64,000 nucleotides of DNA from Demequina mangrovi (GTDB lineage Bacteria; Actinomycetota; Actinomycetes; Actinomycetales; Demequinaceae). Made by a program: the position numbers and the translations under genes. Location of the stretch: positions 1 through 64,000 of the forward strand of contig NZ_BBLU01000003.1 in assembly GCF_000759715.1 (NCBI RefSeq), written 5' to 3'. Below the pieces are notes generated by a model. That model had not been told where the DNA came from and did no database searches. It saw only the letters and a list, made by a program, of their open reading frames with translations. Positions 19,754-40,831 of the stretch are shown one piece after another. Position 1 is the stretch's first letter, and the number at the start of each line of letters is the position of its first letter.

Positions 19754-21622
<1,869 letters not shown>

Positions 21623-21723
21623 GATCGCCTACCAACCCTGCCCCGGGGTCAGGGTCGCGACCTCGGTCCCGCGCGCGGCGCCCGTCGCTGATGCTTAATG
21701 GACTCACCCGAAGGAGAGTCCCC

Positions 21724-23079: not shown

Positions 23080-23120
23080 CCTCTCGGGCACGCGGCAACA
23101 CCCGCGACACACGGCCCGCG

Positions 23121-23126
23121 TACCCT
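23121..23126 (+). promoter_or_regulatory. -10 box TACCCT, 7 nt before start
   Basis: TANNNT box ending 7 nt before ATG 23134, indicating a leaderless transcript. Confidence 0.6.
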
Positions 23127-23133
23127 TTTCCGC

Positions 23134-24204
23134 ATGGATGTCGCGATCGTCGGAGCCACCGGGGACATCGGCCGGGCGATCTGCGGATCCCTGATCGAGC
23201 ACGGTGAGCTGGGGCCCACGAGCCGTCTGCAGCTGGTCGGACGGGAGGGCGGCGCCTCGGGCGACGCGATCCACGGGCTGCGCGTCGACCTCATCGACGC
23301 GCACGACGAGCGCGCGCCCCACATCGACGTCGCGACCCGACCCGAGGACGTGGTCGCCGACGTCATCGTCATCGCCGCCGGCGCCACCGTGCCGACGGGG
23401 ACCGGCCAGGTGGTCGACCGCGACAAGCTCGCCGAGGGCAACCGGCGCTTGTTCGAGCAGTACGCCGACGCCCTCGCCGCGCACGGCTCCGGCCACGAGG
23501 TCGTGATCGTCGTCTCCAACCCGGTCGAGCTCGCGGTCGAGGTCTTCGCGCGCCGCCTAGGCCGCCACCGCGTCATCGGCATGGGCGCATGGCTCGACAC
23601 GCTGCGCTTCCGCCGCGAGATCGCGGCGACGCTGGGGATCCGCCGCCAACGGGTGGGCGGCTTCGTCGCGGGCCAGCACGGCGACCGGATGGTGCCGCTG
23701 TGGTCGAGCGTGCGGCTCCGCGGCCTCGACCCGGACGAGCGCGCCGAGATCGTCGACCGCCTGCGCGGCGAGCGGACCCTCGCCTCGTTCCGCTCCGAGG
23801 TGACCGCCGCGAAGCAGCGCGTCGCCGGGGAGCCGGACGTCCGTGGGGCCTTCGCCGCGATCGACACCTACCCGCCGGACATCCAGGCGGTGATCCGGCC
23901 CTACCTCACGCACCAGAGCGGCGCCAAGACCGCGTACGGCACCGCCAATGCGACCGTCGACCTCATCCGCACGGTGCTCGACGGCCGCGACATCGTGGTG
24001 GCCGGCCAGGTGCTGCTCGACGGCGAGATCGAGCTGGGCGGGATCCCGTGGCGCGGGGTGCTGGGCGTGCCCGTCGCGGTCGGCCCCGAGGGCTGGTCGA
24101 AGGTGCTGCTCGACGACCTCGCTCCCGACGAGACGCGCGTGCTGTGGGAGGTCGCCCAGTCCATCAACGAGTCCCTGGTCGCATGGGGAGGCGGTGCGCG
24201 ATGA
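23134..24204 (+). CDS. Lactate/malate dehydrogenase-family protein, atypical
   Basis: NAD-dependent 2-hydroxyacid dehydrogenase fold of 356 residues. The N-terminus has GATGDIG, then VSNPVE (conserved Asn), LDTLRFR (substrate-binding Arg171 region) and the catalytic His in GQHGDRMVPLWS. The active-site loop reads ATVPTGTGQVVDRDKL, in which the position of the MDH Arg or LDH Gln that selects the substrate is not recognisable. The reaction may therefore differ from both (inference). It is translationally coupled to an ACT-like partner. Confidence 0.82.
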   Translation: MDVAIVGATGDIGRAICGSLIEHGELGPTSRLQLVGREGGASGDAIHGLRVDLIDAHDERAPHIDVATRPEDVVADVIVIAAGATVPTGTGQVVDRDKLAEGNRRLFEQYADALAAHGSGHEVVIVVSNPVELAVEVFARRLGRHRVIGMGAWLDTLRFRREIAATLGIRRQRVGGFVAGQHGDRMVPLWSSVRLRGLDPDERAEIVDRLRGERTLASFRSEVTAAKQRVAGEPDVRGAFAAIDTYPPDIQAVIRPYLTHQSGAKTAYGTANATVDLIRTVLDGRDIVVAGQVLLDGEIELGGIPWRGVLGVPVAVGPEGWSKVLLDDLAPDETRVLWEVAQSINESLVAWGGGAR

Positions 24205-24656
24205 GCACGATCACCCAGCGCTGGTTCGCCTTCATCGAGGTCGAGGACCGCTCCGGCGCGTCCGCAGCCCTCACCGGGGTCTTCTCCGAGCGGGGCGTGA
24301 GCTTCGGCTCGGTGTCGACGCTCGACGTGCACGACGGCCGCGGCACCATGTCGGTCGAGTTCGCGGCGTCCGAGCGCCTCGCGCAGGTGCTGGTCCGCAC
24401 GCTCGAGCGGCTCGCGGTCGTGGTGTCGGTGGCGCTCGTCCGGGCGGACGATGCGGGCGTGAGGGCCGTCGCGGTCCTCACCGGGATCCCGTCCGAGCCC
24501 GAGGTGCCCGCCGAGGTGAGCGTGCATCGTCACGACGACGCCGCCGGAGGGATCACGATGCTCGTGGGCCCGCTGCCGTCCGTGAGCGCGGCCGTCGCTG
24601 AGCTGCGCCCGCGCGGGGCCACCGTCCAGGCGCTCACGGTCCTGCCCCCGCGCTGA
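24201..24656 (+). CDS. ACT-like regulatory protein coupled to the dehydrogenase
   Basis: Protein of 151 residues whose ATG overlaps the dehydrogenase stop (ATGA). The N-terminal 75 residues (FIEVEDRSGASAALTGVF, RGVSFGSVSTL) have the beta-alpha-beta look of an ACT domain as in acetolactate synthase small subunits; the C-terminal half may be a second, weaker copy. It probably binds an amino acid or effector and could regulate the neighbouring dehydrogenase (inference). A GGACGATGCG copy encodes the ADDAG segment. Confidence 0.7.
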   Translation: MSTITQRWFAFIEVEDRSGASAALTGVFSERGVSFGSVSTLDVHDGRGTMSVEFAASERLAQVLVRTLERLAVVVSVALVRADDAGVRAVAVLTGIPSEPEVPAEVSVHRHDDAAGGITMLVGPLPSVSAAVAELRPRGATVQALTVLPPR

Positions 24657-24674
24657 GGCTCCCGGCGCCGGCGA

Positions 24675-24730
24675 CCGTCAGCGCCCCATGGCGCGCACGC
24701 GAGGCGCGAGAGCGCCCGTCAGCGCCCCAT
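24675..24730. repeat. Direct repeat, two copies of CCGTCAGCGCCCCAT
   Basis: Identical 15-mers at 24675-24689 and 24716-24730, 41 nt apart, in the spacer between converging genes. The period and position resemble the 42-nt repeat at 16537-16596. Confidence 0.7.
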
Positions 24731-24771
24731 TCGGGGGAGCGGTGCCGTCGCCAGCCCCGGACGGGCCGAGA

Positions 24772-25896
24772 TCAGCCCGCCTGGTACGGGCTGACCACGA
24801 TGTCGACGCGCTGGAACTCCTTGAGGTCCGAGTAGCCGGTGGTGGCCATCGACCGGCGCAGCGCGCCCATGAGGTTCGACGTGCCGTCGGCGTGCGTGCC
24901 GGGGCCGAAGAGGATCTCGTCGAGGGTGCCCGTCGTGCCCACGTGGACGCGCTCGCCGCGCGGCAGCTCCGAGTGGTGCGCCTCGGGACCCCAGTGGAAG
25001 CCGGCGCCGGGCGCCTCCTCTGCGCGCGCGAGCGCCGCGCCGAGCATGATCGCGTCCGCGCCGCACGCGATCGCCTTGACGATGTCGCCCGAGCGGCCCA
25101 GGCCGCCGTCCGCGATGACGTGCACGTAGCGGCCGCCCGACTCGTCGAGGTAGTCGCGACGCGCGGCGGCGACGTCGGACACCGCGGTCGCCATGGGCGC
25201 GTGGATGCCGAGCGTGGTGCGCGTGGTCTGCGCCGCACCGCCGCCGAAGCCGACAAGCACGCCCGCCGCGCCGGTGCGCATGAGGTGCAGGGCCGCCTGG
25301 TAGGTCGAGGCGCCGCCGACGATCACGGGGACGTCGAGGTCGTAGATGAACTTCTTGAGGTTGAGCGGCTCGGCGCCGTCGGAGACGTGCTCGGCGGACA
25401 CCGTGGTGCCGCGGATGACGAAGAGGTCCACGCCGGCCTTGAGCACCGTCTCGTAGTGCTCCTGCGTGCGCTGCGGGCTGAGCGCGCCCGCCACGACCAC
25501 GCCGGCCGCGCGGATCTCCTGGAGGCGCGCGGTGATGAGCTCGTCCTTGATGGGCTCGCGGTAGAGCTCCTGCATGCGCGCGGTGGCGTCCGCCGGATCC
25601 AGAGCGGCGATCTCCTCGAACACCGCGGCGGGGTCCTCGTACCGGGTCCACAGGCCCTCGAGGTCGAGCACGCCGAGGCCGCCGGCGTTGCCGAGAGCGA
25701 TCGCCGTCGCCGGGCTCATCACGGAGTCCATGGGCGCGCCGATGACGGGGATCTCGAACTGGAAGGCGTCGATCTGCCAGCCGAGGCTCACCACCTTCGG
25801 GTCGCGCGTGCGCCGCGAGGGCACCACCGCGATGTCGTCGAAGGAATAGGCGCGGCGTCCGCGCTTGCCGCGGCCGATCTCGATCTCGTTGCTCAC
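24772..25896 (-). CDS. guaB3: GuaB3-family IMP dehydrogenase-related protein
   Basis: TIM-barrel protein of 374 residues in the IMPDH/GMP-reductase superfamily, the actinobacterial GuaB3 type (N-terminal EIEIGRGKRGRRAYSFDDI). It lacks the CBS pair. In place of the IMPDH loop with the catalytic Cys (GSICTTR in the GuaB of this window) it has GFGGGAAQTTRTTLG, with no Cys there. This is a family trait, so the activity is not ordinary IMP dehydrogenase; GMP-reductase-like or regulatory roles are possible. The start GTG 25896 is preceded by a TAGGCT box. Confidence 0.9.
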   Translation of the reverse strand: MSNEIEIGRGKRGRRAYSFDDIAVVPSRRTRDPKVVSLGWQIDAFQFEIPVIGAPMDSVMSPATAIALGNAGGLGVLDLEGLWTRYEDPAAVFEEIAALDPADATARMQELYREPIKDELITARLQEIRAAGVVVAGALSPQRTQEHYETVLKAGVDLFVIRGTTVSAEHVSDGAEPLNLKKFIYDLDVPVIVGGASTYQAALHLMRTGAAGVLVGFGGGAAQTTRTTLGIHAPMATAVSDVAAARRDYLDESGGRYVHVIADGGLGRSGDIVKAIACGADAIMLGAALARAEEAPGAGFHWGPEAHHSELPRGERVHVGTTGTLDEILFGPGTHADGTSNLMGALRRSMATTGYSDLKEFQRVDIVVSPYQAG

Positions 25897-25904
25897 GGGC
25901 CACT

Positions 25905-25910
25905 AGCCTA
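25905..25910 (-). promoter_or_regulatory. -10 box TAGGCT, 8 nt before guaB3
   Basis: TANNNT box with an 8-nt gap to GTG 25896; a leaderless or very short-leader transcript. Confidence 0.45.
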
Positions 25911-26003
25911 TCGCCCGTACACCTGCGCACACACGGGACGATGCGGGACCCGCCTGTGGACAGGTGTGCGCCGGGTGTCGGACGGGCGTGCCAGGCTAGG
26001 ACC

Positions 26004-26771
26004 ATGAGCTGGCTCGACGAGACCATGGTGGGCTTCGACACCGAGACGACGGGCGTGTCCACCGCGACCGACCGCATCGTCACCGCGGCGGTGATCACGC
26101 GACGCGGGGACGAGGTCACCACCCGCACGTGGCTGATCGACCCGGGGGTCGACATCCCGGCCTCCGCGAGCGCGGTGCACGGCATCTCGACGGAGAAGGC
26201 GCGCGCCGAGGGCGTCCAGCCCCCGGAGGCGCTCGAGGAGATCGCGTCGCTGCTGGCGGAGGCGCTCGACGCGGGCTTCCCGGTGGTGGCCTTCAACGCG
26301 CAGTTCGACCTCACGCTGCTCGAGCACGAGCTCGCGCGCCACGGGCTGCCCTCGCTCGCCTCGCGTCTCGACCGCGAGGAGGTGCGCCCGGTGATCGACC
26401 CGCTGGTGCTGGACCGCAAGCTCGATCAGTACCGCAAGGGCAAGCGCAAGCTCATCGACCTGTGCACGCTGTACGCGGTCAAGGTGGATGCGGACGATCT
26501 CCACGCCGCGGATGCGGACGTCCTCGCGACGCTCGACCTTGTCCAGGCGCTCGCCTCGGCCCACCCGACCATGCGGGAGACCTCCCTGGACTCGCTGCAC
26601 GACCTCCAGGCCGCCGCCCACCACGACTGGGCCGTCCGCTTCGGCGCATGGCTCAAGTCGAAGGGCACCACGGACGACCTGCCCGACCCGATCTGGCCCG
26701 TGGCCGCCCCCGCGCTCGCGCTGGCCTCGCCGGGTGGCGCAGACGAGGGCGGCGCCGGCCTGCTCTTCTAA
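26004..26771 (+). CDS. DnaQ-like DEDDh 3'-5' exonuclease
   Basis: Single exonuclease domain of about 180 residues plus a C-terminal region, 255 residues in all. ExoI is FDTETTGV, ExoII is VAFNAQFDLTLL, and ExoIII is the HAADADVLAT segment with the DEDDh His. It is related to the epsilon proofreading subunit, but in actinobacteria such proteins usually act as accessory nucleases, so a replication role is not implied. The start ATG 26004 gives a normal N-terminus; an upstream ATG at 25941 would add 21 residues of no family match. Confidence 0.9.
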   Translation: MSWLDETMVGFDTETTGVSTATDRIVTAAVITRRGDEVTTRTWLIDPGVDIPASASAVHGISTEKARAEGVQPPEALEEIASLLAEALDAGFPVVAFNAQFDLTLLEHELARHGLPSLASRLDREEVRPVIDPLVLDRKLDQYRKGKRKLIDLCTLYAVKVDADDLHAADADVLATLDLVQALASAHPTMRETSLDSLHDLQAAAHHDWAVRFGAWLKSKGTTDDLPDPIWPVAAPALALASPGGADEGGAGLLF

Positions 26772-26789
26772 TCCGCCGAAGGGCGCGAG

Positions 26790-26817
26790 CCGTCGGACGA
26801 GGCGCATCGTCCGGCGG
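26790..26817 (+). terminator. Hairpin terminator containing the GGACGATGC motif
   Basis: An 11-bp stem with one G-U pair (CCGTCGGACGA against TCGTCCGGCGG) and a 6-nt loop, 19 bp after the exonuclease stop. The right half is an exact inverted motif copy (26804-26812). Confidence 0.7.
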
Positions 26818-26923
26818 GACTGTACGCGCGGGCCATGCCCGAGCCTTCCGCTCGCCCTCGCGGCGGTCAGCGACGCCCGGATCCGGGGATAGTGTCGGAG
26901 GACACACCTACCCGGAGGTCACA

Positions 26924-28201
26924 ATGACGTGGTCCACCACGGAGGCCGCCGCCCCTACAGGGGCCGGCCCTCTCACCGATGCGCTCTCCCAGCTCGACAA
27001 CGCGCTGGAGCACCTCGGCATCAACGGCGGCATCAAGAAGATGCTCACCACCCCGCGACGCGAGCTCATGGTGAGCGTCCCGCTGCGCCGCGATGACGGC
27101 TCGATCGCCGTCTACTCGGGCTACCGGGTGCAGCACAACTTCTCGCGCGGCCCCGCCAAGGGCGGCCTGCGCTACTCCCCCTCGGTCGACCTCGACGAGG
27201 TGCGCGCGCTCGCCATGTGGATGACATGGAAGTGCGCGCTCGTCGACGTGCCGTACGGCGGCGCGAAGGGCGGCATCGCCATCGATCCACGCGAGCACTC
27301 GCAGGCCGAGCTCGAGCGCGTCACCCGCCGCTACACCTCGGAGATCCTGCCCATCATCGGCCCGACCAAGGACATCCCGGCGCCGGACATCGGCACCGAC
27401 GAGCGCACGATGGCGTGGATGATGGACACCTACTCCGCCGCGATGGGCCACACCGTGCCGGGCGTGGTGACGGGCAAGCCCGTGAGCCTCGGCGGCTCGT
27501 ACGGACGCGCCTCGGCGACGTCGCGCGGGGTCGCGCACATCGCGCTGATGGCGCTCGCCGCACGCGGGATGGACCCGTCGCGGACCACCGCCTCGGTGCA
27601 GGGCTTCGGCAAGGTCGGCCGGGACGCCGCGCGCTTCCTCGCCGCCGCGGGGGTCAAGGTGCTCGCGGTGAGCGACATCGACGGCGCGGTGTACGACGAG
27701 CGCGGGCTCGACATCGGTCGCCTGTCCGAGCACGCGGAGCGCCACGGCTCGGTCGAGGGCTTCGAGGGCACCGAGGCGATCGACCCCGCCTCCATCCTCA
27801 CGCTCGACGTCGACCTCGTGGTCCCGGCTGCAGTCGAGGGGGTCCTCACCGCCGAGAACGCCGGTCGGGTGCGGGCGAGCATCGTGGTCGAGGGCGCGAA
27901 CGGCCCCACCACGCGCGAGGCCGATGCGATCCTCAACGACGCCGGGGTCCTCGTGGTGCCGGACATCCTGGCGAACGCGGGCGGCGTGGTCGTGTCGTAC
28001 TTCGAGTGGGTGCAGGCGAACCAGGCGTACCAGTGGTCGGAACGCGACGTGAATGACCGGCTCGAGGAGCGCATGACGCGCGCGTGGCACGACGTGGTCG
28101 ACTACGCGGGCGCGCACGGGCTCTCGTACCGCGAGGCGGCCACGGCCCTCGCGGTCCAGCGCGTCACGGAGGCCCATCGCCTGCGGGGCCTCTACCCCTG
28201 A
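26924..28201 (+). CDS. gdhA: Glutamate dehydrogenase
   Basis: Interconverts glutamate and 2-oxoglutarate plus ammonia with NAD(P). It has 425 residues, the compact hexameric RocG/GudB-like class. Signatures are RVQHNFSRGPAKGGLRYSP (substrate-binding Lys), CALVDVPYGGAKGGI with the catalytic Lys region, PAPDIGTDERTMAWMMD, and the Rossmann motif VQGFGKVGRDAARFL. The start ATG 26924 follows CCGGAGGTCACA. The coenzyme cannot be fixed by eye. A 19-bp inverted repeat follows the stop. Confidence 0.95.
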   Translation: MTWSTTEAAAPTGAGPLTDALSQLDNALEHLGINGGIKKMLTTPRRELMVSVPLRRDDGSIAVYSGYRVQHNFSRGPAKGGLRYSPSVDLDEVRALAMWMTWKCALVDVPYGGAKGGIAIDPREHSQAELERVTRRYTSEILPIIGPTKDIPAPDIGTDERTMAWMMDTYSAAMGHTVPGVVTGKPVSLGGSYGRASATSRGVAHIALMALAARGMDPSRTTASVQGFGKVGRDAARFLAAAGVKVLAVSDIDGAVYDERGLDIGRLSEHAERHGSVEGFEGTEAIDPASILTLDVDLVVPAAVEGVLTAENAGRVRASIVVEGANGPTTREADAILNDAGVLVVPDILANAGGVVVSYFEWVQANQAYQWSERDVNDRLEERMTRAWHDVVDYAGAHGLSYREAATALAVQRVTEAHRLRGLYP

Positions 28202-28212
28202 CCCCGGTCGAC

Positions 28213-28288
28213 TCCCAATGACAGATGTGACGGGTGGGACTGACGTCGGCGAGCACGCCGGTCACATCTGTCACATCTGTCATTGGGA
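28213..28288. repeat. Long inverted repeat between converging genes
   Basis: Perfect 19-bp arms beginning TCCCAATGACAGATGTGAC (28213-28231) and mirrored at 28270-28288, with a 38-nt loop that contains an extra GTCACATCT copy. The arms are much less GC-rich than the surroundings. It may act as a bidirectional terminator for gdhA and the TSUP gene, or be a small miniature element. Confidence 0.75.
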
Positions 28289-28297
28289 ATCGGAGGG

Positions 28298-29047
28298 CTA
28301 GGCGAGGAGGTAGCGGACCAGCATCCCCACGCTCATCACCACGATGAGCACGCGCAGCACCACGGGGTTCACCTTGAACAGCACGTGCGAGGCGACGTAG
28401 GAGCCCACCAGCTGGCCGCCGATCATCGCGCCGCCGACCGCCCACGCGATCTGCCCCGCGAAGGCGAAGACCAGCAGAGACGCGACGTTGGTCGCGAAGT
28501 TGAGCGTCTTGGCCACCGCGGTCGACCGCACGAGCGACTGCGCCCGCAGCGTCACGCCCGCGAGCGCGAAGAGCGAGCCCGTGCCGGGCCCGAAGGCGCC
28601 GTCGTACGCGCCGATCGCCGGCACCACGGTCGCCTCGTAGGGCGCGGCCGACATCCGCTCACGGTCGGGCGGCTGATGCGCCTTGGGCACGAAGGCGAAG
28701 TAGGCGGCGATCACCGCGAGCACCACGGGGATGATGACCCGCAGCGGCTCGGGGTCCGCGAACTGGATGGCCACCGAGCCCGCGACGGACCCGAGGAAGG
28801 CCCAGAGCATCGGCCAGCGCGCATCGGACCATCGCACGCGACGGCGGCGGATCACCTGCCACGTCGCCATGCCGGTGCCGAAGGACCCCTGGAGCTTGTT
28901 GGTGCCGAGCGCCTGCAGCGGAGGCACCCCCGCGAGGAGCAGGGCGGGCAGCGTCAGCAGCCCGCCCCCTCCCGCGAGCGTGTCGAGGAACCCCGCCAGC
29001 AGCGCGACGACCGCCAGGATCGCGAGCGTCTGCCAGGCGAGGTCCAC
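28298..29047 (-). CDS. TSUP (TauE/SafE) family membrane permease
   Basis: Membrane protein of 249 residues with about eight hydrophobic helices in two repeats. The conserved N-terminal GFLDTLAGGGGLLTLPALL and the second-repeat segment GAYDGAFGPGTGSLFAL mark the TSUP family, which exports small anions such as sulfite or organosulfonates. The GTG start lies 16 bp past the guaB stop, so it is probably co-transcribed with guaB. The substrate is not identifiable. Confidence 0.88.
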   Translation of the reverse strand: MDLAWQTLAILAVVALLAGFLDTLAGGGGLLTLPALLLAGVPPLQALGTNKLQGSFGTGMATWQVIRRRRVRWSDARWPMLWAFLGSVAGSVAIQFADPEPLRVIIPVVLAVIAAYFAFVPKAHQPPDRERMSAAPYEATVVPAIGAYDGAFGPGTGSLFALAGVTLRAQSLVRSTAVAKTLNFATNVASLLVFAFAGQIAWAVGGAMIGGQLVGSYVASHVLFKVNPVVLRVLIVVMSVGMLVRYLLA

Positions 29048-29062
29048 GCGCGGGCCGCGGCG

Positions 29063-30586
<1,524 letters not shown>

Positions 30587-30676
30587 AGTGCCGCGAAGAG
30601 GGCCGACAGCACGGCCCCGGCGCCCTCGTATCGGCGCCGCACCGGTCGACGGCGCGCGCGGACGGCCGAACGCCAG

Positions 30677-30696
30677 AAGTAAGGCTCGCCTCACTT
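30677..30696. promoter_or_regulatory. Candidate DtxR/IdeR-like iron box
   Basis: AAGTAAGGC and GCCTCACTT pair at 8 of 9 positions around TC. The AGGCTNGCCT core resembles actinobacterial iron-regulator boxes. It lies about 100 bp upstream of guaB and 320 bp upstream of the WhiB-like gene; which gene it serves is unknown. Confidence 0.3.
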
Positions 30697-30713
30697 CGAG
30701 CCGCCTCGCCGCG

Positions 30714-30727
30714 TGAGAGCGCTCACA
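30714..30727. promoter_or_regulatory. Candidate LacI-type operator (CebR/CelR-like)
   Basis: TGAGAGCGCTCACA matches 12 of 14 positions of the TGGGAGCGCTCCCA operator known for CebR/CelR regulators, with the GAGCGCTC centre intact. Confidence 0.3.
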
Positions 30728-31018
30728 GGAGAACGGGCGGCAAAGTGCCTGGTAGATCGAATTTTGTCGGACAATACGTCGCGATTGCCGTCACGCTTCC
30801 CCCTGGAGGCAATTGACACGCGTAAAAAAGTGACGGGAATTGGTCAAATCGGGCCTTCCCATCCACCAGGGACGATGTTATGAATGGCGGTGGGGGGACG
30901 TGAACGGCACCGGCCACAAGCCGACTGTCGGACACATGAGAAGGACGACCAGCAACGATTCTGAGCGGCAATGGCGCCGCTCGTGGGGAGAATCGAGACA
31001 ACCCAAAAAGGGGGCGCG

Positions 31019-31309
31019 ATGGAGGCCGTGGCGAAACTGCCCGCACCTACTCAGGACCAGTGGGAGTGGCAGTACGAAGGTTCATGCCGGGACGCCGATC
31101 CCGACCTGTTCTTCCACCCGGAGGGCGAACGAGGGGCGGCGCGTCGACGCCGCGCCGAGACCGCCAAGGAGTACTGCGCAGGATGCCCGGTGCTCGACAC
31201 GTGCCGCGAGCGCTCGCTCCAGGCACGCGAGCCGTTCGGGGTCTGGGGCGGGCTGAGCGAGGATGAGCGTCACGCGATCCTCGCCGGGCGCCTCAAGCAG
31301 GCCAGCTGA
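31019..31309 (+). CDS. WhiB-family iron-sulfur transcription factor, WhiB3-like
   Basis: Wbl protein of 96 residues that binds a [4Fe-4S] cluster and partners the principal sigma factor. Cluster ligands are Cys23, Cys53, Cys56 and Cys62; the turn GVWGG is at 74-78, followed by a basic C-terminus. The DPDLFFHPEGERG sequence before the second Cys resembles the WhiB3 class, linked to redox and nutrient sensing in other actinobacteria. ATG 31019 lies after GGGGGCG; an in-frame ATG at 30971 would add 16 residues outside the usual family start. Confidence 0.92.
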   Translation: MEAVAKLPAPTQDQWEWQYEGSCRDADPDLFFHPEGERGAARRRRAETAKEYCAGCPVLDTCRERSLQAREPFGVWGGLSEDERHAILAGRLKQAS

Positions 31310-31314
31310 CAGAC

Positions 31315-31355
31315 GCGAACGCCGCATCGTCCATGGAGGACGATGCGGCGTTCGC
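31315..31355 (+). terminator. Terminator made of two inverted exact GGACGATGCG copies
   Basis: A perfect 18-bp stem with a 5-nt loop (ATGGA), starting 6 bp after the WhiB-like stop. The arms contain exact CGCATCGTCC (31323-31332) and GGACGATGCG (31338-31347) copies extended by 8 further paired bases each. Confidence 0.88.
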
Positions 31356-31397
31356 ATGTCACAGGTCGGCGCAGCGGGCGCCGACCCGGGAACGACG

Positions 31398-31429
31398 ACG
31401 GGCCCCGGGGCTGACGCCCCGAGGCCCGT
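31398..31429 (-). terminator. Terminator of groES
   Basis: A 14-bp stem with one mismatch and a TGAC loop, 17 bp past the groES stop, in the gap between converging genes. No motif copy is present in this one. Confidence 0.75.
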
Positions 31430-31445
31430 GCGAAGAAGCGGCTTG

Positions 31446-31739
31446 TCAGCCGACGATGGCGAGCAGGTCGCGCGCCGAGAGGATGAGGTACTCCTCACCG
31501 GCGTACTTGACCTCGGTGCCGCCGTACTTGCTGTAGATCACCTTGTCGCCGACGGTGACGTCGACGGGGACACGGTTGCCGTTGTCGTCGATGCGACCCG
31601 GGCCCACCGCCACGACCTCGCCCTCCTGGGGCTTCTCCTTGGCGGTGTCAGGGATCACGAGGCCGGACGCCGTCGTGGTCTCGGCCGCGGCGGCCTTGAC
31701 AACAACCTTGTCCTCCAGAGGCTTGATGGAGACCGACAC
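31446..31739 (-). CDS. groES: Co-chaperonin GroES
   Basis: Heptameric lid of the GroEL chaperonin, 97 residues from GTG 31739, giving the standard N-terminus [12 protein letters not shown]. An in-frame GTG at 31751 would add four residues. The mobile-loop segment [21 protein letters not shown] and the C-terminal [13 protein letters not shown] are typical. No groEL follows; the next gene downstream is convergent, so groEL must lie elsewhere. Transcription is controlled by the CIRCE element upstream. Confidence 0.96.
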
Positions 31740-31841
31740 TGCGGACCTCACCTTCCGTACTCGAAGTATGTGGGTGCGGATCCGCGGGATCGCCGTCGCG
31801 GGGGTCGATCCTGGATCCGCGCTCGTGAGAGCACCCTCAAT

Positions 31842-31868
31842 CTAGCACTCGGGACACGAGAGTGCTAA
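31842..31868 (-). promoter_or_regulatory. CIRCE element (HrcA operator) over the groES promoter
   Basis: CTAGCACTC, nine bases, GAGTGCTAA matches the CIRCE consensus except at the outermost base pair. A TAGATT -10 box (31839-31844, minus) overlaps its edge, so HrcA binding would block groES transcription and release it on heat stress. Confidence 0.92.
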
Positions 31869-31908
31869 CGAGCGTCGGAGCGTCTCCGGCGGGTGAGATG
31901 ATCCGGGG

Positions 31909-33078
31909 ATGGACCCCGTCACCGCTCGCCTCACGGTGAGCGAGGCCTGCCTCGAGCTCGCCGCCTCGCTGCGCGACGTCGCCCCGCGCGACGCCCTCGC
32001 CGTGTCGGGCCGGCTGAGGAGGGAGGGCCACGCACCGGCGCTGGTCGCGGCCGCGCTCACGCTCGCGGAGCTGCGCGAGGAGGCCCGCCCCCGCCTCGGC
32101 GACGCGGTCGACGCGATGGCCTTCCATCGCGCAGGGCTCGAGCAGGCCTCACGCGCGGCCGTCTCCCGGCTCCACGCCGCACGCTTCGCGGAGGCCCACT
32201 GCCGCAAGGTCGCCGACCTCACGGCGGGCCTCGGCACGGACGCCATGGCGATCGCGCGACGCGGCCTCGGCGTGGTCGCGTTCGAGGCGGACGAGGCCAC
32301 CGCGGTGCTCGCCGCCCACAACCTCTCCCCGTGGCCGCTCGCCCGGGTGGTGCACGGCGACTCGCTCGCCGGGCTCGCCTCCGTGACGGTCGACGGGATC
32401 TTCGCCGACCCGGCGCGACGGAACGCGCGAGGGCGACGGCACGATCCGGCCGACTACTCCCCGCGGCTCGACGCGGTGCTCGACCTCCGACACGAGGTGC
32501 GCGCGCTCGGCGTGAAGGCCGGCCCCGCGCTCCCCCACGAGGCGATCCCCGAGGACATGGAGGCGCAGTGGGTGAGCATCGACGGCGACGTGGTCGAGGT
32601 CGGGCTCTGGGCGGGCGACGCGGCCCGCCGCACGGGGCACGCGGCGCTCGTGATCCGCGGCGACGAGGAGCATGAGATCGCGGGGCCGACGGACCGCGCC
32701 GGCTCGGGCCCGCTGGGCGAGTGGCTGCTCGAGCCTGACGGCGCGGTGATCCGCGCGGGGCTGATCGGCGTGCTCGCCGACGAGCTCGACGCCCACCTCG
32801 TGGACCCGTCCATCGCCTACCTCACCGCCGACGTGCCGGTCGAGACGCCGTTCGCGCGGGCCTACCGCGTCCTCGAGCGCCTGCCGCTCGACGTCAAGGC
32901 CCTCGCCAGGGAGCTGCGCAGCCGCGACGTCGGCACCGTCGACATCAAGAAGCGAGGCGTCGACCTCACCCCGGAGCAGCTGCGCCCGCGCCTCAGGCTC
33001 AAGGGATCACAGCGCGCGACGCTCGTGCTCACGCGCCTCGAGGGGCGCCACGCCGCACTGCTCGTCGAGCCCGCGTAG
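31909..33078 (+). CDS. Class I SAM-dependent methyltransferase with THUMP-like C-terminus
   Basis: Protein of 389 residues. A Rossmann methyltransferase core has the motif I region ADLTAGLGTDAMAIA, an acidic partner VAFEADE, and FADPARR (the motif IV-like DPAR). It is preceded by an N-terminal helical segment and followed by a C-terminal THUMP-like domain (VDIKKRGVDLTPEQLRPRL). Such proteins are common in actinobacteria and are thought to modify RNA, but the target is not established. It diverges from groES, and the CIRCE lies in the shared spacer. Confidence 0.85.
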   Translation: MDPVTARLTVSEACLELAASLRDVAPRDALAVSGRLRREGHAPALVAAALTLAELREEARPRLGDAVDAMAFHRAGLEQASRAAVSRLHAARFAEAHCRKVADLTAGLGTDAMAIARRGLGVVAFEADEATAVLAAHNLSPWPLARVVHGDSLAGLASVTVDGIFADPARRNARGRRHDPADYSPRLDAVLDLRHEVRALGVKAGPALPHEAIPEDMEAQWVSIDGDVVEVGLWAGDAARRTGHAALVIRGDEEHEIAGPTDRAGSGPLGEWLLEPDGAVIRAGLIGVLADELDAHLVDPSIAYLTADVPVETPFARAYRVLERLPLDVKALARELRSRDVGTVDIKKRGVDLTPEQLRPRLRLKGSQRATLVLTRLEGRHAALLVEPA

Positions 33079-33131
33079 CGCGCCCCGGAGAGGGCCCTCG
33101 ACCGGCCCCGCGCTCGCCTCGCCGCACAACG

Positions 33132-33161
33132 TCCACCATGCGGTGGAAATTGGTTTAGCAT
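33132..33161 (+). promoter_or_regulatory. Putative promoter/operator of the sulfatase gene
   Basis: A perfect inverted repeat TCCACC-ATGC-GGTGGA (33132-33147) lies just before a TAGCAT -10-like box (33156-33161), in a locally AT-rich stretch 64 bp before the ATG. The repeat would overlap a -35 region, suitable for repression. Confidence 0.4.
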
Positions 33162-33224
33162 CTTTCACCAGCATGCGGCGCGCGTTCGGCGCCGCGCTGA
33201 GAGATGAAGCACGAGAGGACGACG

Positions 33225-34835
33225 ATGTCATCAGCAACGCCCCCGGAGGGCACGCCCGAGAACGCCGCGCAGGCCGGCGCCGAGCAGGCCCCGGTCGAGC
33301 GGGCAGCCGCCGAGCAGACCTCGGCTGAGCAGGCAGCCGCCGAGACCACCACCGTCGAGACGCCGGCCAAGCGCAGCCGCGGCAAGCGCATCCTCAAGGC
33401 GACCGGCCTGACGCTCGCGCTGCCCGGCGCCGCCGTGGTGGCCGGCGGCGGATACGTCGCGGTCAAGGCGCTCACCTCCAGCCCCGACAACTCGCCCGAG
33501 CACGAGGCGTCCAAGGACGAGTACCTCGACGCGCTCGCCGGCACCACGTCCTCGGGCGAGGCGCCCAACGTGCTGCTCGTCTACTACGACGACCTCGGCT
33601 ACGAGGACCTGGGCTTCATGGGCGAGACGCCCATCAAGACGCCGAACCTCGACTCCCTCGCCGAGGACGGCGCGGTGCTGACGAACTACCACTCGCCGTC
33701 GGCAGTGTGCACGCCGTCGCGCGCCGCCATGCTGACCGGGCGCCTCGCGCCCCGCGCCGGCGTCCCCGAGGTGCTGTTCCCCAGCTCCGGCGCGATGAAC
33801 CTCATGAACGTCATGGCGGACGCGCACGGGCTCACGCAGGCCGAGATCACCATCCCCGACGTCCTCCAGGCGTCGGGCTACGACACGGGCATGATCGGCA
33901 AGTGGCACATCGGCGACACCGAGGGCTCGAAGCCGAACGACTTCGGCTTCGACTCGTTCCTCGGCTCGCTGTACTCGAACGACATGGCGCCGTTCTCGAT
34001 CTACCAGGACGAGGAGGTGCTGCTCGAGACCGTCGACCAGACCGAGCTCGACGCGTTCTACACGGACGCCGCGGTCGACTTCATCGGCGACGCCGCCGAG
34101 TCCGACGACCCGTTCTTCCTGTACTTCGCCCACAACTTCCCGCACGAGCCCCTGTTCGCGGCGGAGGAGAACGAGGGCCGCTCCGACGCCGGCCTGTACG
34201 GCGACATCGTCGAGGGCCTCGACGACGGCATCGGCCGCATCGTCGACGAGCTCGAGGCCACCGACCAGCTCGACAACACGATCATCATCGTCACGAGCGA
34301 CAACGGCCCGTGGTTCCAGGGCGACGCGGGCGACAACCGCGGCCGCAAGGGCATGGTCTACGAGGGCGGCCAGCTGGTGCCGTTCCTCGTCCACTGGCCC
34401 GACGGCGTCGAGGGCGGTCAGACGATCGACACCATGACCATGGGCACCGACCTCATGCCGACCCTGCTGGACTGGCTCGACATCGAGGCACCCACGGACC
34501 GCGTTCTCGACGGCTCGTCCATGGCGCCGCTGCTCGCGGGCGAGAGCGACGAGGTCAGCGAGTACTACTACTACTACGCCGGCAGCGAGCTGATGGCGGT
34601 CAGCGACGGCCGGTACAAGTACCACGCGCGCACGCCGTACCTCTACACGATGAGCGGCGACACGTTCACCATCGGTGCGCACGTGAAGGGTCCCTGGCTG
34701 TTCGACCTCGAGGCCGACCCGAGCGAGTCGTACGACATCCTCGACAGCAACCCCGAGAAGGCCGCCGAGCTCGCGGCTGAGCTCGAGCGCAAGAACGCCG
34801 AGATGGAGGAGAACCTCCGCGGCTGGGTCTCCTGA
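33225..34835 (+). CDS. Type I (Cys-type) sulfatase, membrane-anchored
   Basis: Hydrolyses sulfate esters, probably of a polysaccharide. It has 536 residues from ATG 33225 (AGAGGA site); ATG 33204 is an alternative. An Ala/Glu-rich N-terminal region of about 50 residues precedes a basic patch and one hydrophobic segment (about 56-80), so the catalytic domain lies outside the membrane. Metal-binding Asp122-Asp123 are followed by the CxPxR motif with Cys162 in CTPSR, the residue converted to formylglycine. The alkaline-phosphatase-fold signatures GKWHIG and TSDNGPWFQ follow. The next gene encodes the maturase. Confidence 0.92.
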   Translation: MSSATPPEGTPENAAQAGAEQAPVERAAAEQTSAEQAAAETTTVETPAKRSRGKRILKATGLTLALPGAAVVAGGGYVAVKALTSSPDNSPEHEASKDEYLDALAGTTSSGEAPNVLLVYYDDLGYEDLGFMGETPIKTPNLDSLAEDGAVLTNYHSPSAVCTPSRAAMLTGRLAPRAGVPEVLFPSSGAMNLMNVMADAHGLTQAEITIPDVLQASGYDTGMIGKWHIGDTEGSKPNDFGFDSFLGSLYSNDMAPFSIYQDEEVLLETVDQTELDAFYTDAAVDFIGDAAESDDPFFLYFAHNFPHEPLFAAEENEGRSDAGLYGDIVEGLDDGIGRIVDELEATDQLDNTIIIVTSDNGPWFQGDAGDNRGRKGMVYEGGQLVPFLVHWPDGVEGGQTIDTMTMGTDLMPTLLDWLDIEAPTDRVLDGSSMAPLLAGESDEVSEYYYYYAGSELMAVSDGRYKYHARTPYLYTMSGDTFTIGAHVKGPWLFDLEADPSESYDILDSNPEKAAELAAELERKNAEMEENLRGWVS

Positions 34836-34844
34836 CCCGAGCGT

Positions 34845-34888
34845 GAACGATGCGGCCGTCCACGGCGACGTGGGCGGCCGCATCGTGC
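34845..34888 (+). terminator. Hairpin after the sulfatase gene, near-copies of the 9-mer
   Basis: A 12-bp perfect stem ACGATGCGGCCG/CGGCCGCATCGT within arms that are one-mismatch copies of GGACGATGCG (34845-34854, 34879-34888), 9 bp past the stop. The sulfatase and maturase genes are therefore probably transcribed separately. Confidence 0.65.
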
Positions 34889-34930
34889 TTCCCGGACCTC
34901 CGGTCCCGCCTCACCCCGCCCCCCTCCCCG

Positions 34931-34936
34931 TAGAAT
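34931..34936 (+). promoter_or_regulatory. -10 box TAGAAT, 9 nt before the maturase gene
   Basis: A near-consensus -10 hexamer with a 9-nt gap to ATG 34946; a leaderless or very short-leader transcript. Confidence 0.5.
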
Positions 34937-34945
34937 TGTCACCGT

Positions 34946-36220
34946 ATGTCCGATTCGCCCGCGCCCCAGAGCCCCGTCGTCGTCGCCGTCCCCGGCCTGG
35001 ACCCGCTGACCGCCGGCGGGCGCCGCAGGCTGCCGTTCACGGTCCTGGCCAAGCCGACCGGCGCGGCGTGCAACCTCGACTGCACGTACTGCTTCTTCCT
35101 GTCCAAGGAGCTGCTGTACGACGGCGACGGCCAGCGCATGACCGAGGCCGGCCTCGAGTCCTACCTCGCGAACCTGCTGCGCTCGCAGCCCGACGGCGAG
35201 GTCGAGATCGCGTGGCAGGGCGGCGAGCCGACGATGCGCGGGATCCCGTTCTTCCGGCGCGCTGTCGAGCTCGCGGAGCAGCTGCGCCGCCCTCAGCAGA
35301 CCGTGCGGCACACGCTGCAGACCAACGGCACCCTGCTGGACGATGCGTGGGGCGAGTTCCTCGCGGCGAACGGCTTCCTCATCGGGCTGAGCGTCGACGG
35401 GCCCGCGCACCTGCACGACGCCTACCGCGTCAACAAGGCCGGGAGGGCGACGCACGCGCAGGTGATGCGCGGGCACGAGATCCTCCGGCGCCACGGCGTC
35501 GAGTACAACATCCTCTGCACCGTGCACGCGGCCAACCAGGACCACGGGCTCGAGGTGTACCGCTACTTCCGCGACACCCTCGGCGCGCGGCACGTGCAGT
35601 TCATCCCGATCGTCGAGCGCGTGACCCGGGAGCAGCTCCCGATCGCGGAGCAGGGCTGGAAGGACGGCAACGGCACCCGCATCCTCTACCGCCAGGAGGG
35701 TGACGCGGTCACGTCGCGGAGCGTGGACCCGGCGGCGTGGGGCGAGTTCCTCGCGACGATCTTCGACGAGTGGGCCGCACACGACGTCGGCACAGTCTTC
35801 GTTCAGCACTTCGACGTCATGCTCGGCAACGCGCTCGGCCAGTACTCGATGTGCGTGCACGCGCCCGAGTGCGGCGGCGCGCTCGCGGTGGAGCACTCCG
35901 GCGACGTGTACGCGTGCGATCACTTCGTCGAGCCGGGATACAAGCTCGGCAACGTCGCGGAGCGGTCGCTGCAGTCGATGCTCCAGTCGCCCGAGCAGCG
36001 CGCCTTCGGCCAGGCCAAGCGCACCGGCCTGCCGCGGCAGTGCGCGGAATGCCCCGTGCGATGGGCCTGCCACGGCGGCTGCCCCAAGGATCGCTTCGAC
36101 ACCACGGCCGACGGCGAGCCCGGCCTCAACCACCTGTGCCCCGGGTACTTCCGGTTCTTCTCGCACGCCGCGCCGACCATCCGCCGCATGGCGGAGCTGG
36201 TGGGACCGACGCTGGGCTAG
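34946..36220 (+). CDS. Anaerobic sulfatase-maturating enzyme (radical SAM, SPASM)
   Basis: Oxidises the sulfatase active-site Cys (or Ser) to formylglycine without oxygen. It has 424 residues. The radical-SAM cluster motif is CxxxCxxC at Cys42, Cys46 and Cys49, and the SAM-binding WQGGEPT follows. The C-terminal SPASM/twitch part has further Cys in HAPECGG, YACDHF, QCAECPVRWACHGGCPKDR and LCPGY for two auxiliary clusters. The adjacent Cys-type sulfatase is the obvious client. The product of the next gene converges, and the two stops share the palindrome CTAG. Confidence 0.94.
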   Translation: MSDSPAPQSPVVVAVPGLDPLTAGGRRRLPFTVLAKPTGAACNLDCTYCFFLSKELLYDGDGQRMTEAGLESYLANLLRSQPDGEVEIAWQGGEPTMRGIPFFRRAVELAEQLRRPQQTVRHTLQTNGTLLDDAWGEFLAANGFLIGLSVDGPAHLHDAYRVNKAGRATHAQVMRGHEILRRHGVEYNILCTVHAANQDHGLEVYRYFRDTLGARHVQFIPIVERVTREQLPIAEQGWKDGNGTRILYRQEGDAVTSRSVDPAAWGEFLATIFDEWAAHDVGTVFVQHFDVMLGNALGQYSMCVHAPECGGALAVEHSGDVYACDHFVEPGYKLGNVAERSLQSMLQSPEQRAFGQAKRTGLPRQCAECPVRWACHGGCPKDRFDTTADGEPGLNHLCPGYFRFFSHAAPTIRRMAELVGPTLG

Positions 36221-36507
36221 CCTGCCGGCTGCTCCTTGAGGAGCTTGGACACCATCTGCTGACTGGTGCCCACCTCGCGCGCGATCGCGCTCTGGGACAT
36301 CCCGGTCGAGGCGAGCTCGCGAATCCGCGCCTTGACGTCGTCGGTCAGCGTCCCGGACCGCTTCGACGGCCCGCCGCGGCGACCCGTCATGATCGAGTCG
36401 ACGCTCGCCTTCGAGATCCCGAGCGCCTCGGCGACGTCGATGCGTCGCTCCCCCGCCTCGACGCGACGCCGCACCTCCGCGACCTGGGCCTCCGTGATCC
36501 GTGCCAT
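36217..36507 (-). CDS. Small helix-turn-helix protein with two HTH units
   Basis: Basic protein of 96 residues with two helix-turn-helix segments, one near 22-40 (DVAEALGISKASVDSI) and one near 70-90 (SQSAIAREVGTSQQMVSKLL), both of the Hin-resolvase/sigma70-region-4-like type. There is no catalytic domain, so it is not a recombinase. It is probably a DNA-binding regulator with unknown targets. The stop overlaps the maturase stop on the other strand. Confidence 0.7.
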   Translation of the reverse strand: MARITEAQVAEVRRRVEAGERRIDVAEALGISKASVDSIMTGRRGGPSKRSGTLTDDVKARIRELASTGMSQSAIAREVGTSQQMVSKLLKEQPAG

Positions 36508-36513
36508 GAGGCC

Positions 36514-36519
36514 AGCCTA
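36514..36519 (-). promoter_or_regulatory. -10 box TAGGCT, 6 nt before the HTH gene
   Basis: TAGGCT with gap GGCCTC to ATG 36507; a leaderless arrangement. Confidence 0.55.
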
Positions 36520-36524
36520 GGCAC

Positions 36525-37130
36525 TCAGGCGCCGGCGACGAGCGACACCGCGAGCACCGCCATCACGGCCGCGATCGCGCCGTCGAGCACCCTCCACGCG
36601 CCCGGGCGCGCCAGGACCCCGGACAGCAGGCGCGCGCCGAAGCCGAGGCCCGCGAACCACAGCGCGCTGCCCGTCACAGCCCCGGCGGCGAAGAGCCAGC
36701 GCGCCTCGTGCGTCGACGCCACCGTCCCCAGCAGCACCACGGTGTCGAGGTAGACGTGCGGGTTGAGCCAGGTCAGCGCGAGGCACGTGGCGGCGACCGC
36801 GCCGGACGATGCGGCGGCCGCCGGGGCATCGTGCGCGTCGAGCGTCTCGCCTGCGGGACGGAGCGCACGCCGGGCCGCGAGCGCGGCGTAGCCCAGCAGG
36901 AAGGCGGCGCCCGCCCACCGTGCGCCTGACACGAGCCACGGCACGTTCTCCACAGCCGCGCCGACCCCGGCGACGCCCGCCGCGATGAGCACGGCGTCCG
37001 AGAGCGTGCAGATCGTCACCACCAGCAGCACGTGCTCGCGGCGGAGCCCCTGGCGCAGCACGAAGACGTTCTGGGCCCCGATCGCGACGATCAGCGAGAG
37101 CCCGAGCCCGAGCCCGACGAGGTAGGTCAT
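36525..37130 (-). CDS. lysE: LysE/ArgO-family amino-acid exporter
   Basis: Membrane exporter of basic amino acids, 201 residues, about six hydrophobic helices. The N-terminal IGAQNVFVLRQGLRREHV and the central TWLNPHVYLDTVVLLG are family hallmarks. It diverges from the LysR-type gene, the classical lysE/lysG arrangement in which the regulator activates export when lysine or arginine accumulates. Specificity for lysine versus arginine is not decided. Confidence 0.92.
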   Translation of the reverse strand: MTYLVGLGLGLSLIVAIGAQNVFVLRQGLRREHVLLVVTICTLSDAVLIAAGVAGVGAAVENVPWLVSGARWAGAAFLLGYAALAARRALRPAGETLDAHDAPAAAASSGAVAATCLALTWLNPHVYLDTVVLLGTVASTHEARWLFAAGAVTGSALWFAGLGFGARLLSGVLARPGAWRVLDGAIAAVMAVLAVSLVAGA

Positions 37131-37136
37131 GGCGAC

Positions 37137-37142
37137 ACGTTA
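37137..37142 (-). promoter_or_regulatory. -10 box TAACGT, 6 nt before lysE
   Basis: TANNNT box with gap GTCGCC to ATG 37130. Confidence 0.5.
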
Positions 37143-37153
37143 TCCGCAGGTTC

Positions 37154-37179
37154 TCCACAGCACTATTAACAATTGTGGA
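37154..37179. promoter_or_regulatory. Inverted repeat in the lysE/lysG divergent promoter
   Basis: TCCACA and TGTGGA arms with a 14-nt AT-rich centre lie between the two divergent -10 boxes; a candidate LysG (LysR-type) binding site. Confidence 0.5.
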
Positions 37180-37187
37180 CTGTGCAT

Positions 37188-37193
37188 TAGCGT
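37188..37193 (+). promoter_or_regulatory. -10 box TAGCGT, 7 nt before lysG
   Basis: TANNNT box with a 7-nt gap to ATG 37201; no ribosome-binding site is visible in the gap. Confidence 0.5.
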
Positions 37194-37200
37194 TGCTTAT

Positions 37201-38082
37201 ATGAAGATCCCCGCCGACCTCGCGCAGACGCTGGCTGCCGTCGTCGACGAGGGGTCGCTCGAGGCCGCGGCACGCACGCTCCACGTCACCCAGCCCGCCG
37301 TGAGCCAGCGCATCGCGACGCTCGAGCGGCTCACGGGGCAGGTGCTCCTCATCCGCTCGCGCCCTGCCCGCGCCACCGAGGCGGGCGAGGCCGTGGTGCG
37401 CTACGGACGTCAGGTCTCCCTGCTCGAGTCCGAGGCGGCATCGACGCTCGGCATCCCCGAGGACCGCCCCGCGCCGCTGCGGATCGCCGTGAACGCGGAC
37501 TCGCTCGCGACCTGGCTGCTCGCGCCCCTCGCACGCGTCGCACCCGAGCTGGGCAGCACGGTCCACCTTCACCGCGAGGACGAGTCCTACACGGCCGAGC
37601 TCCTCGCCCAGGGCGCGGTGGTGGCGGCGGTCACCACGCGCGCGGCCGCCGTCCCCGGGTGCACGGTGACGGCGCTCGGGCGCATGGCCTACCGCGCGGT
37701 CGCCGCGCCGGGCTTCGCGGCGCGCTGGTTCCCCGACGGCGCGACGGACGAGGCGCTCCGCCTGGCCCCCGTGGTCGACTTCGACCGCCGCGACGACCTG
37801 CAGAGCCGCTGGCTCGACGCGCGTTCCCCCGGGGCGGCGCCCCCGCGCCACCAGGTCCCGTCCTCGGCGGAGTTCGCCCAGGCCATCGCGCTCGGCCTGG
37901 GGTGGGGCCTGCTGCCGCCGTCCCAGCGCACGGGCCACGCGCTGGTGGACCTCGGCGAGCCGTCGCTCGAGGTCGCGCTCCACTGGCAGCAGTGGCGCGT
38001 CCACTCGGCGGACCTCACCGCGGTCGCCGAGGCGGTCGCCCAGGAGGCCCGGAGCACGCTCGAGCCGCTCAGCCCCCGCTGA
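37201..38082 (+). CDS. lysG: LysR-family regulator of the LysG/ArgP group
   Basis: Transcriptional regulator of 293 residues. The N-terminal winged HTH has SLEAAARTLHVTQPAVSQRI (about 17-36) and the wing region LERLTGQVLLIRS; the C-terminal effector domain includes LGLGWGLLP. Sequence and divergence from lysE indicate the LysG/ArgP group sensing basic amino acids. Its 3' end overlaps the nagZ 3' end by 14 bp on the other strand, so transcripts converge with no terminator between. Confidence 0.9.
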   Translation: MKIPADLAQTLAAVVDEGSLEAAARTLHVTQPAVSQRIATLERLTGQVLLIRSRPARATEAGEAVVRYGRQVSLLESEAASTLGIPEDRPAPLRIAVNADSLATWLLAPLARVAPELGSTVHLHREDESYTAELLAQGAVVAAVTTRAAAVPGCTVTALGRMAYRAVAAPGFAARWFPDGATDEALRLAPVVDFDRRDDLQSRWLDARSPGAAPPRHQVPSSAEFAQAIALGLGWGLLPPSQRTGHALVDLGEPSLEVALHWQQWRVHSADLTAVAEAVAQEARSTLEPLSPR

Positions 38083-39712
38083 CCGCGCACACGGGGTACG
38101 GGGCGTCGCCCATGTCGACGGGCCAGGAGCCGCCGGGCTCGGCCTCTCCGACCAGCACCCGCGTGAGGCCCGCGAGCGCCGCGCGCGAGGAACCGTAGGT
38201 CGCGACGTACGCCCGCGCATCGGAGCCGAAGAGCCCCCACGGGTCGCCGAGAGAGACCACCACGTCCGCGGTCGCCGCGGTGCGCCCCGAGGACACCAGC
38301 GCGACGGACGTGCCGCGCTCGCCCACCTCGACCCCCGCGGCCTCGAGCATCCGCGAGAGGGTGCGCCGCGCCTCGTCCGATCCGGAGACGATCCGCGCAC
38401 GCCGGCCCACGAGCGGCGTCTCGCAGTCCGCCGTCGCGACCGTGGTGCCGGCGATCGCCAGGGCACGGCCGTAGGCCGGCTCCGGACCGGACGCATCGAG
38501 GCCGCCCGCCCACCGCATGAGCAGGATCGACCTCGCGGCCGCCTCGTCGAGCCGGGCGCGCGCAAGGCCGCCGTCGCGTACCGCCGCGACCACCGCGCGG
38601 ATCGCCGCATCGGCGTCGGCGGGCATGACGAGCACGTCGGCGCCGGCGGCGAGCGCGTCGACCGCCGCCTCGCCCGCGGCGCGGCCGGACGTCACCGCGC
38701 CCATGTTCAGCGCATCGGTCACGGCGGCTCCCGTGAAGCCGAGCTCCTCTCGCAGGTACGCGTACGCCTCGTGCTCGAGCGTCGCGGGGCCGTCGCCCCA
38801 CGCGGGCACCGCGATGTGGCCGACCATGACCGCCGGCGCGCCCGCATCGATCGCCGCGGCGAAGGGCTCGAGATCGGTGCGCGCGAGCGCCTTGAGGCCC
38901 CGCTCCTGCACCGGCAGCGCCTCGTGCGAGTCGACGGTGACGGAGCCGTGGCCGGGGAAGTGCTTGATCACCGGGATCACGCCGCCGCCGAGGTAGCCCT
39001 CGACCGCCGCGGTCACGGTGCGCGCGACCTCCGCCGGGTCGGAGCCGGCGCTGCGCGAGCGGATGATCGGGTCGGCGGGTCCGATGGTGACGTCCGCGAC
39101 CGGCGCGAGGTCGACGTTGACGCCCAGCGCGCGGAGGTCCGCCCCCTGCGAGGCGTACGCCGCGGTCACCGCCGCCTTGTCGGTCGCCGCGCCCGCGGCC
39201 ATGAAGCCGGGCAGGCTCGGCACCGCGCTCGCGAGGCGCGACACCACGCCGCCTTCCTCGTCGGCGGAGACCCACACGGGCCAGGTCCTGTCGTCCGCCT
39301 GCTGCACGCCGGCGGCCAGCGCCGCGACCGCCTCCGCTGAGGGCGCGGCGCCGCCCATGAGGATCACGCCGCCGGCGTGGGTCTCGCGCACGAGCGCCGC
39401 CGCGGCGTCCGGATCCGACGAGTAGAGGTCGAGGATCATCACCTGGCCCGCCGCACGGCGCAGCGGCAGCGCCTGCGCGGTCGCGAGCGCGTCCTCCCAC
39501 TCCTCGACGGTCGGCCCCCAGGCGAGGGTCTCGACCGGCGCCTCGGTGGGCGTGGGCGAGGGGGTCGGCGTGGACGAGGCGCGCGCCTCGGCGGGGGGCG
39601 TGGCGACCGTCGCGACGGGCGAGGCCGCCTCCGGGGACGCGGCCGCATCGTCCCCCTGCGACGTGCACCCCGCGAGCAGGGCCACCGCAGCGAGGACCGC
39701 GGCGATGCGCAT
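38069..39712 (-). CDS. nagZ: Lipoprotein beta-N-acetylhexosaminidase, glycoside hydrolase family 3
   Basis: Probably releases GlcNAc from peptidoglycan fragments outside the cytoplasm. It has 547 residues. A lipoprotein signal ends in LLAGC (lipid-modified Cys16), then a Ser/Thr/Pro-rich linker, then the GH3 domain with VIKHFPGHGSVTVDSH (catalytic His/Asp loop of NagZ enzymes) and TDALNMGAV (nucleophile Asp). A C-terminal domain of about 130 residues follows. The ATG overlaps the tsaD stop by one base (TGATG). Confidence 0.9.
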   Translation of the reverse strand: MRIAAVLAAVALLAGCTSQGDDAAASPEAASPVATVATPPAEARASSTPTPSPTPTEAPVETLAWGPTVEEWEDALATAQALPLRRAAGQVMILDLYSSDPDAAAALVRETHAGGVILMGGAAPSAEAVAALAAGVQQADDRTWPVWVSADEEGGVVSRLASAVPSLPGFMAAGAATDKAAVTAAYASQGADLRALGVNVDLAPVADVTIGPADPIIRSRSAGSDPAEVARTVTAAVEGYLGGGVIPVIKHFPGHGSVTVDSHEALPVQERGLKALARTDLEPFAAAIDAGAPAVMVGHIAVPAWGDGPATLEHEAYAYLREELGFTGAAVTDALNMGAVTSGRAAGEAAVDALAAGADVLVMPADADAAIRAVVAAVRDGGLARARLDEAAARSILLMRWAGGLDASGPEPAYGRALAIAGTTVATADCETPLVGRRARIVSGSDEARRTLSRMLEAAGVEVGERGTSVALVSSGRTAATADVVVSLGDPWGLFGSDARAYVATYGSSRAALAGLTRVLVGEAEPGGSWPVDMGDAPYPVCAVSGG

Positions 39713-40749: not shown

Positions 40750-40755
40750 GGGTCA

Positions 40756-40761
40756 ACTGTA
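40756..40761 (-). promoter_or_regulatory. -10 box TACAGT, 6 nt before tsaD
   Basis: TANNNT box with gap TGACCC to GTG 40749; a leaderless arrangement. Confidence 0.55.
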
Positions 40762-40831
40762 GTCGCGCGTGCGGGCGGCTCCCGCGGTCGGGACCTCGGC
40801 CCGTAGCGAGCATGTGTCAAAGAAGGGGATC

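Follow-up and report, generated by a model that had tools for sequence, protein, structure and literature searches.

We find that the genome of Demequina mangrovi is rich in a short word, the 10-mer GGACGATGCG with the 9-mer GGACGATGC, and we suggest that this word works like a DNA uptake sequence, a reading to which we give a probability of roughly two in three. GGACGATGCG is not filed as a DUS or a USS. The word would be the self-tag of a Demequina DNA-uptake system. Competent cells would prefer to bind or import DNA carrying GGACGATGCG, and recombination biased by uptake would spread the copies and maintain them genome-wide. The word would be read during uptake rather than in another DNA transaction. 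A palindrome made of two facing copies directly past a stop codon could fold in the RNA, and such palindromes might be kept and extended as a 3′-end element, that is, as a terminator or a stabiliser of the mRNA end. The hairpin at 31315–31355 of the window (the whole stretch of 64,000 nucleotides from D. mangrovi that was analysed) would be one such case.

With somewhat more reserve we think that this genus of the Actinomycetota probably evolved its uptake-sequence system independently, that the system comprises at least four dialects and has no precedent in a monoderm or in any family other than the Neisseriaceae and Pasteurellaceae, and that its receptor is not a variable minor pilin of the pilus locus. 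Papers in the open-access literature searched place uptake sequences only in the Neisseriaceae and Pasteurellaceae (PMC12616744, PMC7811141), so that an earlier description elsewhere is possible. That literature yielded no data on uptake or transformation in Demequina, and the 9-mer as a text string turned up only in unrelated papers on primers, aptamers and the like. If the reading is true, uptake specificity arose once more, this time in a different phylum and in cells which lack an outer membrane. The origin of uptake sequences, dialect switching and species isolation would then become testable in environmental bacteria, and adding the word would be a practical key for the transformation of actinobacteria which are hard to manipulate.

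Abundance, placement and conservation of the word

In the window GGACGATGC is present 35 times where 2.0 copies are expected. Pattern searches, from which all genome-wide counts derive, give 1,261 copies in the whole genome of 2.97 Mb, 619 forward and 642 reverse, and only 15 for the reversed-pattern control. Gene context was read in a sample of 464 kb from seven contigs with a home-made gene caller. In this sample GGACGATGC is the top over-represented 9-mer (z 35.6) and GGACGATGCG the top over-represented 10-mer (z 41.1); the word has 205 copies vs 25.4 expected. A G follows at position 10 in 72% of the cases and the flanks show no other conservation. Among the one-mismatch variants of GGACGATGC enrichment is found mostly at positions 1–3.

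Most of the sampled copies, namely 160 of 205 (78%), lie inside genes. The density is nevertheless 2.5 times higher in non-coding DNA, with 0.94 copies per kb vs 0.38 in coding DNA. Because synonymous-codon shuffling within genes gives only 35.5 copies vs the 160 observed and because five of the six reading frames are enriched for the word (the sixth has zero copies), codon use or a favoured peptide fails as an explanation. Codon or peptide bias was thus ruled out as the origin of the word.

The sites are also conserved. Across 12 related species the aligned word is intact in 41 of 70 coding cases (59%) vs 33% for matched neighbouring 9-mers, and in 28 of 45 non-coding cases (62%) vs 9% for the controls; as these comparisons share sites and ancestry, their p-values overstate independence. 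The intergenic gap, however, is roughly sixfold and large.

Inverted pairs and hairpins at gene ends

Two copies within 30 bases of each other face each other at 19 places in the genome and have the opposite arrangement at 21. This makes 40 inverted pairs vs 15 direct pairs, where the chance odds of both are about equal (inverted excess, p 0.001). The context was read for 30 of the inverted pairs, of which 20 are intergenic although only 10% of the genome is non-coding. Eighteen pairs lie past at least one stop codon, including eight between convergent genes; the rest are found between divergent genes (2) and within genes (10). All 12 pairs with a stem of at least 13 bp are intergenic and come after a stop, and the pairs inside genes have stems of 9–12 bp. 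Long stems are confined to the gaps behind stop codons; therefore it appears that the pairing was lengthened only where a 3′-end hairpin could serve. Most motif hairpins are missing a T-tract, and close inverted pairs hold only about 80 of the 1,261 copies. The sequence-only reading of the window had recognised the Neisseria design, an abundant uptake-like word with inverted pairs at gene ends, here with a different word, and had proposed a genome-wide search for such pairs and their position after stops. Both the pair excess and the placement behind stops agree with it.

The longest perfect hairpin of the window has the letters GCGAACGCCGCATCGTCC-ATGGA-GGACGATGCGGCGTTCGC and begins five bases after the whiB stop codon TGA at 31307–31309 (Table 1). 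Folding of the RNA from 31308 to 31375 yields −43.3 kcal/mol (z −7.1), a value equalled by none of 200 shuffles. Coordinates, fold and the Pfam match of the upstream gene confirm what had been read from the letters, that is, an inverted exact motif pair forming an 18-bp perfect hairpin behind a WhiB-like gene. The name terminator, which had been given to this hairpin, is only partly supported. One trait of intrinsic terminators, a stable GC-rich hairpin directly after the stop, is present. Past the stem, however, the U-tract is absent (the tail reads ATGTCACAGG), a simple terminator scan does not pick up the site, and a second hairpin lies before groES. Nearly all Demequina examined retain a GC-rich hairpin equivalent to this second one, downstream of the motif hairpin. 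It is the missing T-tract together with this genus-wide conservation which weakens the name. Matches to Rfam families or tRNAs were not found within the window.

Among 12 clade relatives the whiB site has both arms exact in seven, with differing outer stems. In the remaining relatives there is one exact arm (two species), degenerate arms (one), an unrelated hairpin (one) or nothing (one). Demequina outside the clade do not have the motif hairpin at whiB. Since the arms are restricted to the clade and the downstream GC-rich hairpin is kept nearly throughout, the motif hairpin appears to be superimposed on a pre-existing whiB gene end, and the second hairpin is the likelier ancestral bidirectional terminator.

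Table 1. Copies of the word, hairpins and neighbouring genes in the window
Feature	Position	Strand	Remarks
Span of the 35 copies of GGACGATGC	644..58075	.	20 forward, 15 reverse
Hairpin	15451..15490	.	one intact 9-mer (15479–15487) and one GGACGATGT arm
Weaker hairpin	26790..26817	.	one intact 9-mer (26804–26812)
whiB-like gene, 5′ of the motif hairpin	31019..31309	+	PF02467, E 8e-24
Perfect inverted repeat, two facing copies of GGACGATGC	31315..31355	.	18 bp pairs, 5-nt loop
GGACGATGC, left arm of the hairpin	31324..31332	-	
GGACGATGC, right arm of the hairpin	31338..31346	+	
Second GC-rich hairpin in the whiB–groES gap	31398..31429	.	intergenic sequences, 25 related loci
groES, convergent with whiB	31446..31751	-	PF00166, E 1.5e-36
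Strong hairpin	34845..34888	.	one-mismatch arms GAACGATGC / GCATCGTGC, no exact 9-mer
11-bp perfect hairpin	53471..53495	.	GGCCGATGC/GCATCGGCC, inverted pair of a sister dialect

Four more sites of the window had been listed as related hairpins, the last of them as a looser one. All of them do form hairpins and, together with the one behind whiB, five of five are intergenic. An exact 9-mer is missing at 34845–34888, and the pair at 53471–53495 is built from the sister dialect word. Between genes there are also perfect hairpins without any word, at 5421–5456 (16 bp) and 59634–59663 (13 bp), which are ordinary terminator-like elements.

Dialects and competence genes in Demequina

Sixteen of 44 Demequina genomes are rich in GGACGATGCG (dialect A) and contain 929–1,864 copies of GGACGATGC, compared to about 50–280 in the others. 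Across the order, 396 genomes from 109 genera were scanned, and none outside Demequina exceeds 400 copies of GGACGATGC. A de novo word search in the other Demequina returned GGCCGATGCG, GGCCGATGCC, GCCCGACGCT and GCCGACGCT, and the core CGAYGC is common to all Demequina words. Genome-wide, GGCCGATGC reaches up to 2,018 copies (control 110) and CCCGACGCT has 988 copies in one genome (control 46); GCCGACGCT, found in genome G003, and a weak signal in genome G018 come from small samples. The words of the other dialects, too, mostly have a higher density outside coding DNA and occur as inverted pairs.

The dialects follow phylogeny. A three-protein tree groups the named GGACGATGCG species into a single clade (SH-aLRT 100) and places the GGCCGATGCG species and the GGCCGATGCC species in separate parts of another clade. 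The genome of D. mangrovi contains 488 copies of GGCCGATGC vs 124 of the control, including the inverted pair at 53471–53495, which suggests that these copies are relics of an earlier dialect. At nine dialect A sites which could be aligned to species of dialects B and C, the B word stands at the orthologous place just once. Two alignable sites have the A word in both species, probably due to coding constraint. No abundant word was found in two Demequina genomes, both with ComEC, ComEA and PilM; here a loss of specificity is possible. Small samples of two genomes from the sister genus gave no word of this kind. One genome from another family of the same order carries a longer abundant motif, approximately GG[A/C]CGATGCCGTC, which has CGATGC in common with the Demequina core; it may be either an uptake word related to those of Demequina or a repeat element of greater length.

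The pilus and competence genes are present throughout. D. mangrovi encodes a type IVa pilus locus with PilB, PilT, PilC, prepilins, a PilD-like peptidase, PilM and genes at the positions of PilN and PilO, and the cluster was confirmed by Pfam. The comEA–comEC genes adjoin this locus. ComEC, ComEA, PilM and prepilins were detected in 41 of 41 good Demequina genomes. D. mangrovi has only three N_methyl prepilins, all within the pilus locus, and its minor pilins PilV, PilW and PilX are present in only one of two kinds of pilus locus. Because both kinds occur side by side among the genomes of dialect A and among those of dialect C, the variable minor pilins are probably not the reader of the word. 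None of the minor pilins of the locus tracks the dialect, and as candidates for the receptor they are thus unsupported. The mixture of locus kinds suggests that the locus has been exchanged between Demequina species.

Alternative readings and known systems

Chi sites are likewise short, over-represented, lineage-specific words, and a Chi-like recombination word, read in repair by a nuclease of the RecBCD, AddAB or AdnAB type, would share with the Demequina word also the genome-wide distribution and the common core, as the Chi word varies by lineage. The orientation of Chi words is tied to replication. The Demequina word, however, has no polarity. Its strand balance along the sampled contigs shows no heterogeneity (21 stretches, chi2 14.8, 21 df, p 0.83) and its orientation relative to the genes is balanced (83 sense, 77 antisense). 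In addition it is enriched between genes and forms inverted pairs. On strand symmetry we rejected the Chi or KOPS reading, and in our view a Chi-like word is quite unlikely. The conserved sites and the higher density between genes could also be expected if the word were bound by a protein that organises the chromosome or regulates genes, be it a nucleoid-associated protein, a guide for FtsK or SMC, or a widespread transcription factor. This we regard as unlikely, since 78% of the sampled copies are within genes, the strands are used equally, the spacing is close to random (CV 0.94), polarity is absent and the inverted pairs favour 3′ ends, with just two of 30 between divergent genes.

It could further be argued that the word is solely the common stem word of a family of 3′-end hairpins and that the single copies are remnants, as every inverted pair with a long stem follows a stop. 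The distribution of the single copies already contradicts this very improbable reading, given how few copies are in close inverted pairs and how many occupy coding sequence, where five frames contain them. A mobile or amplified repeat of the REP or MITE type, or a codon or peptide artefact, would account for the high copy number and has hardly any likelihood. The flanks are unconserved past one extra G, and for this missing conservation an origin as repeat element was rejected; the number of copies in 4-kb stretches is close to a Poisson distribution (index 0.93). For the artefact, it is the synonymous-codon shuffles, exceeded in five frames, that speak against it.

An uptake sequence, the reading which we favour, can be compared with the systems already described. 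Natural competence in the Actinomycetota is represented by Micrococcus luteus, which relies on ComEA/ComEC and a type IV filament, components that Demequina also encodes; its pili are of the Flp/Tad type, unlike the type IVa pilus locus of Demequina, and an uptake sequence is not mentioned in the part of that paper considered here (PMC4322843). The USS of the Pasteurellaceae (PMC1626085, PMC7811141) resembles the Demequina word as a 9-mer core which occurs in genes and in intergenic DNA and which has variants in subclades. It differs in the word itself (AAGTGCGGT) and in the phylum, and the Demequina 9-mer has one extra conserved base beside it.

The closest parallels are to the DUS of the Neisseriaceae, whose dialects have an invariant core and are congruent with phylogeny (Frye et al. 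2013, PMC3630211; Treangen et al. 2008, PMC2397512). Both systems have an abundant 10-mer on both strands which is denser between genes and which forms inverted pairs where genes end. In both, the lineages have dialects around an invariant core, and ComEA/ComEC accompany a type IV pilus. The DUS is GCCGTCTGAA with the core CTG, whereas the Demequina word is GGACGATGCG with the core CGAYGC and belongs to a monoderm genus of another phylum, where the word density is lower and the hairpins are mostly without T-tracts. The DUS receptor is the minor pilin ComP; the dialect of a Demequina genome is not matched by the minor pilins at its pilus locus. At the sequence level, all features of the DUS but the word itself are seen in Demequina.
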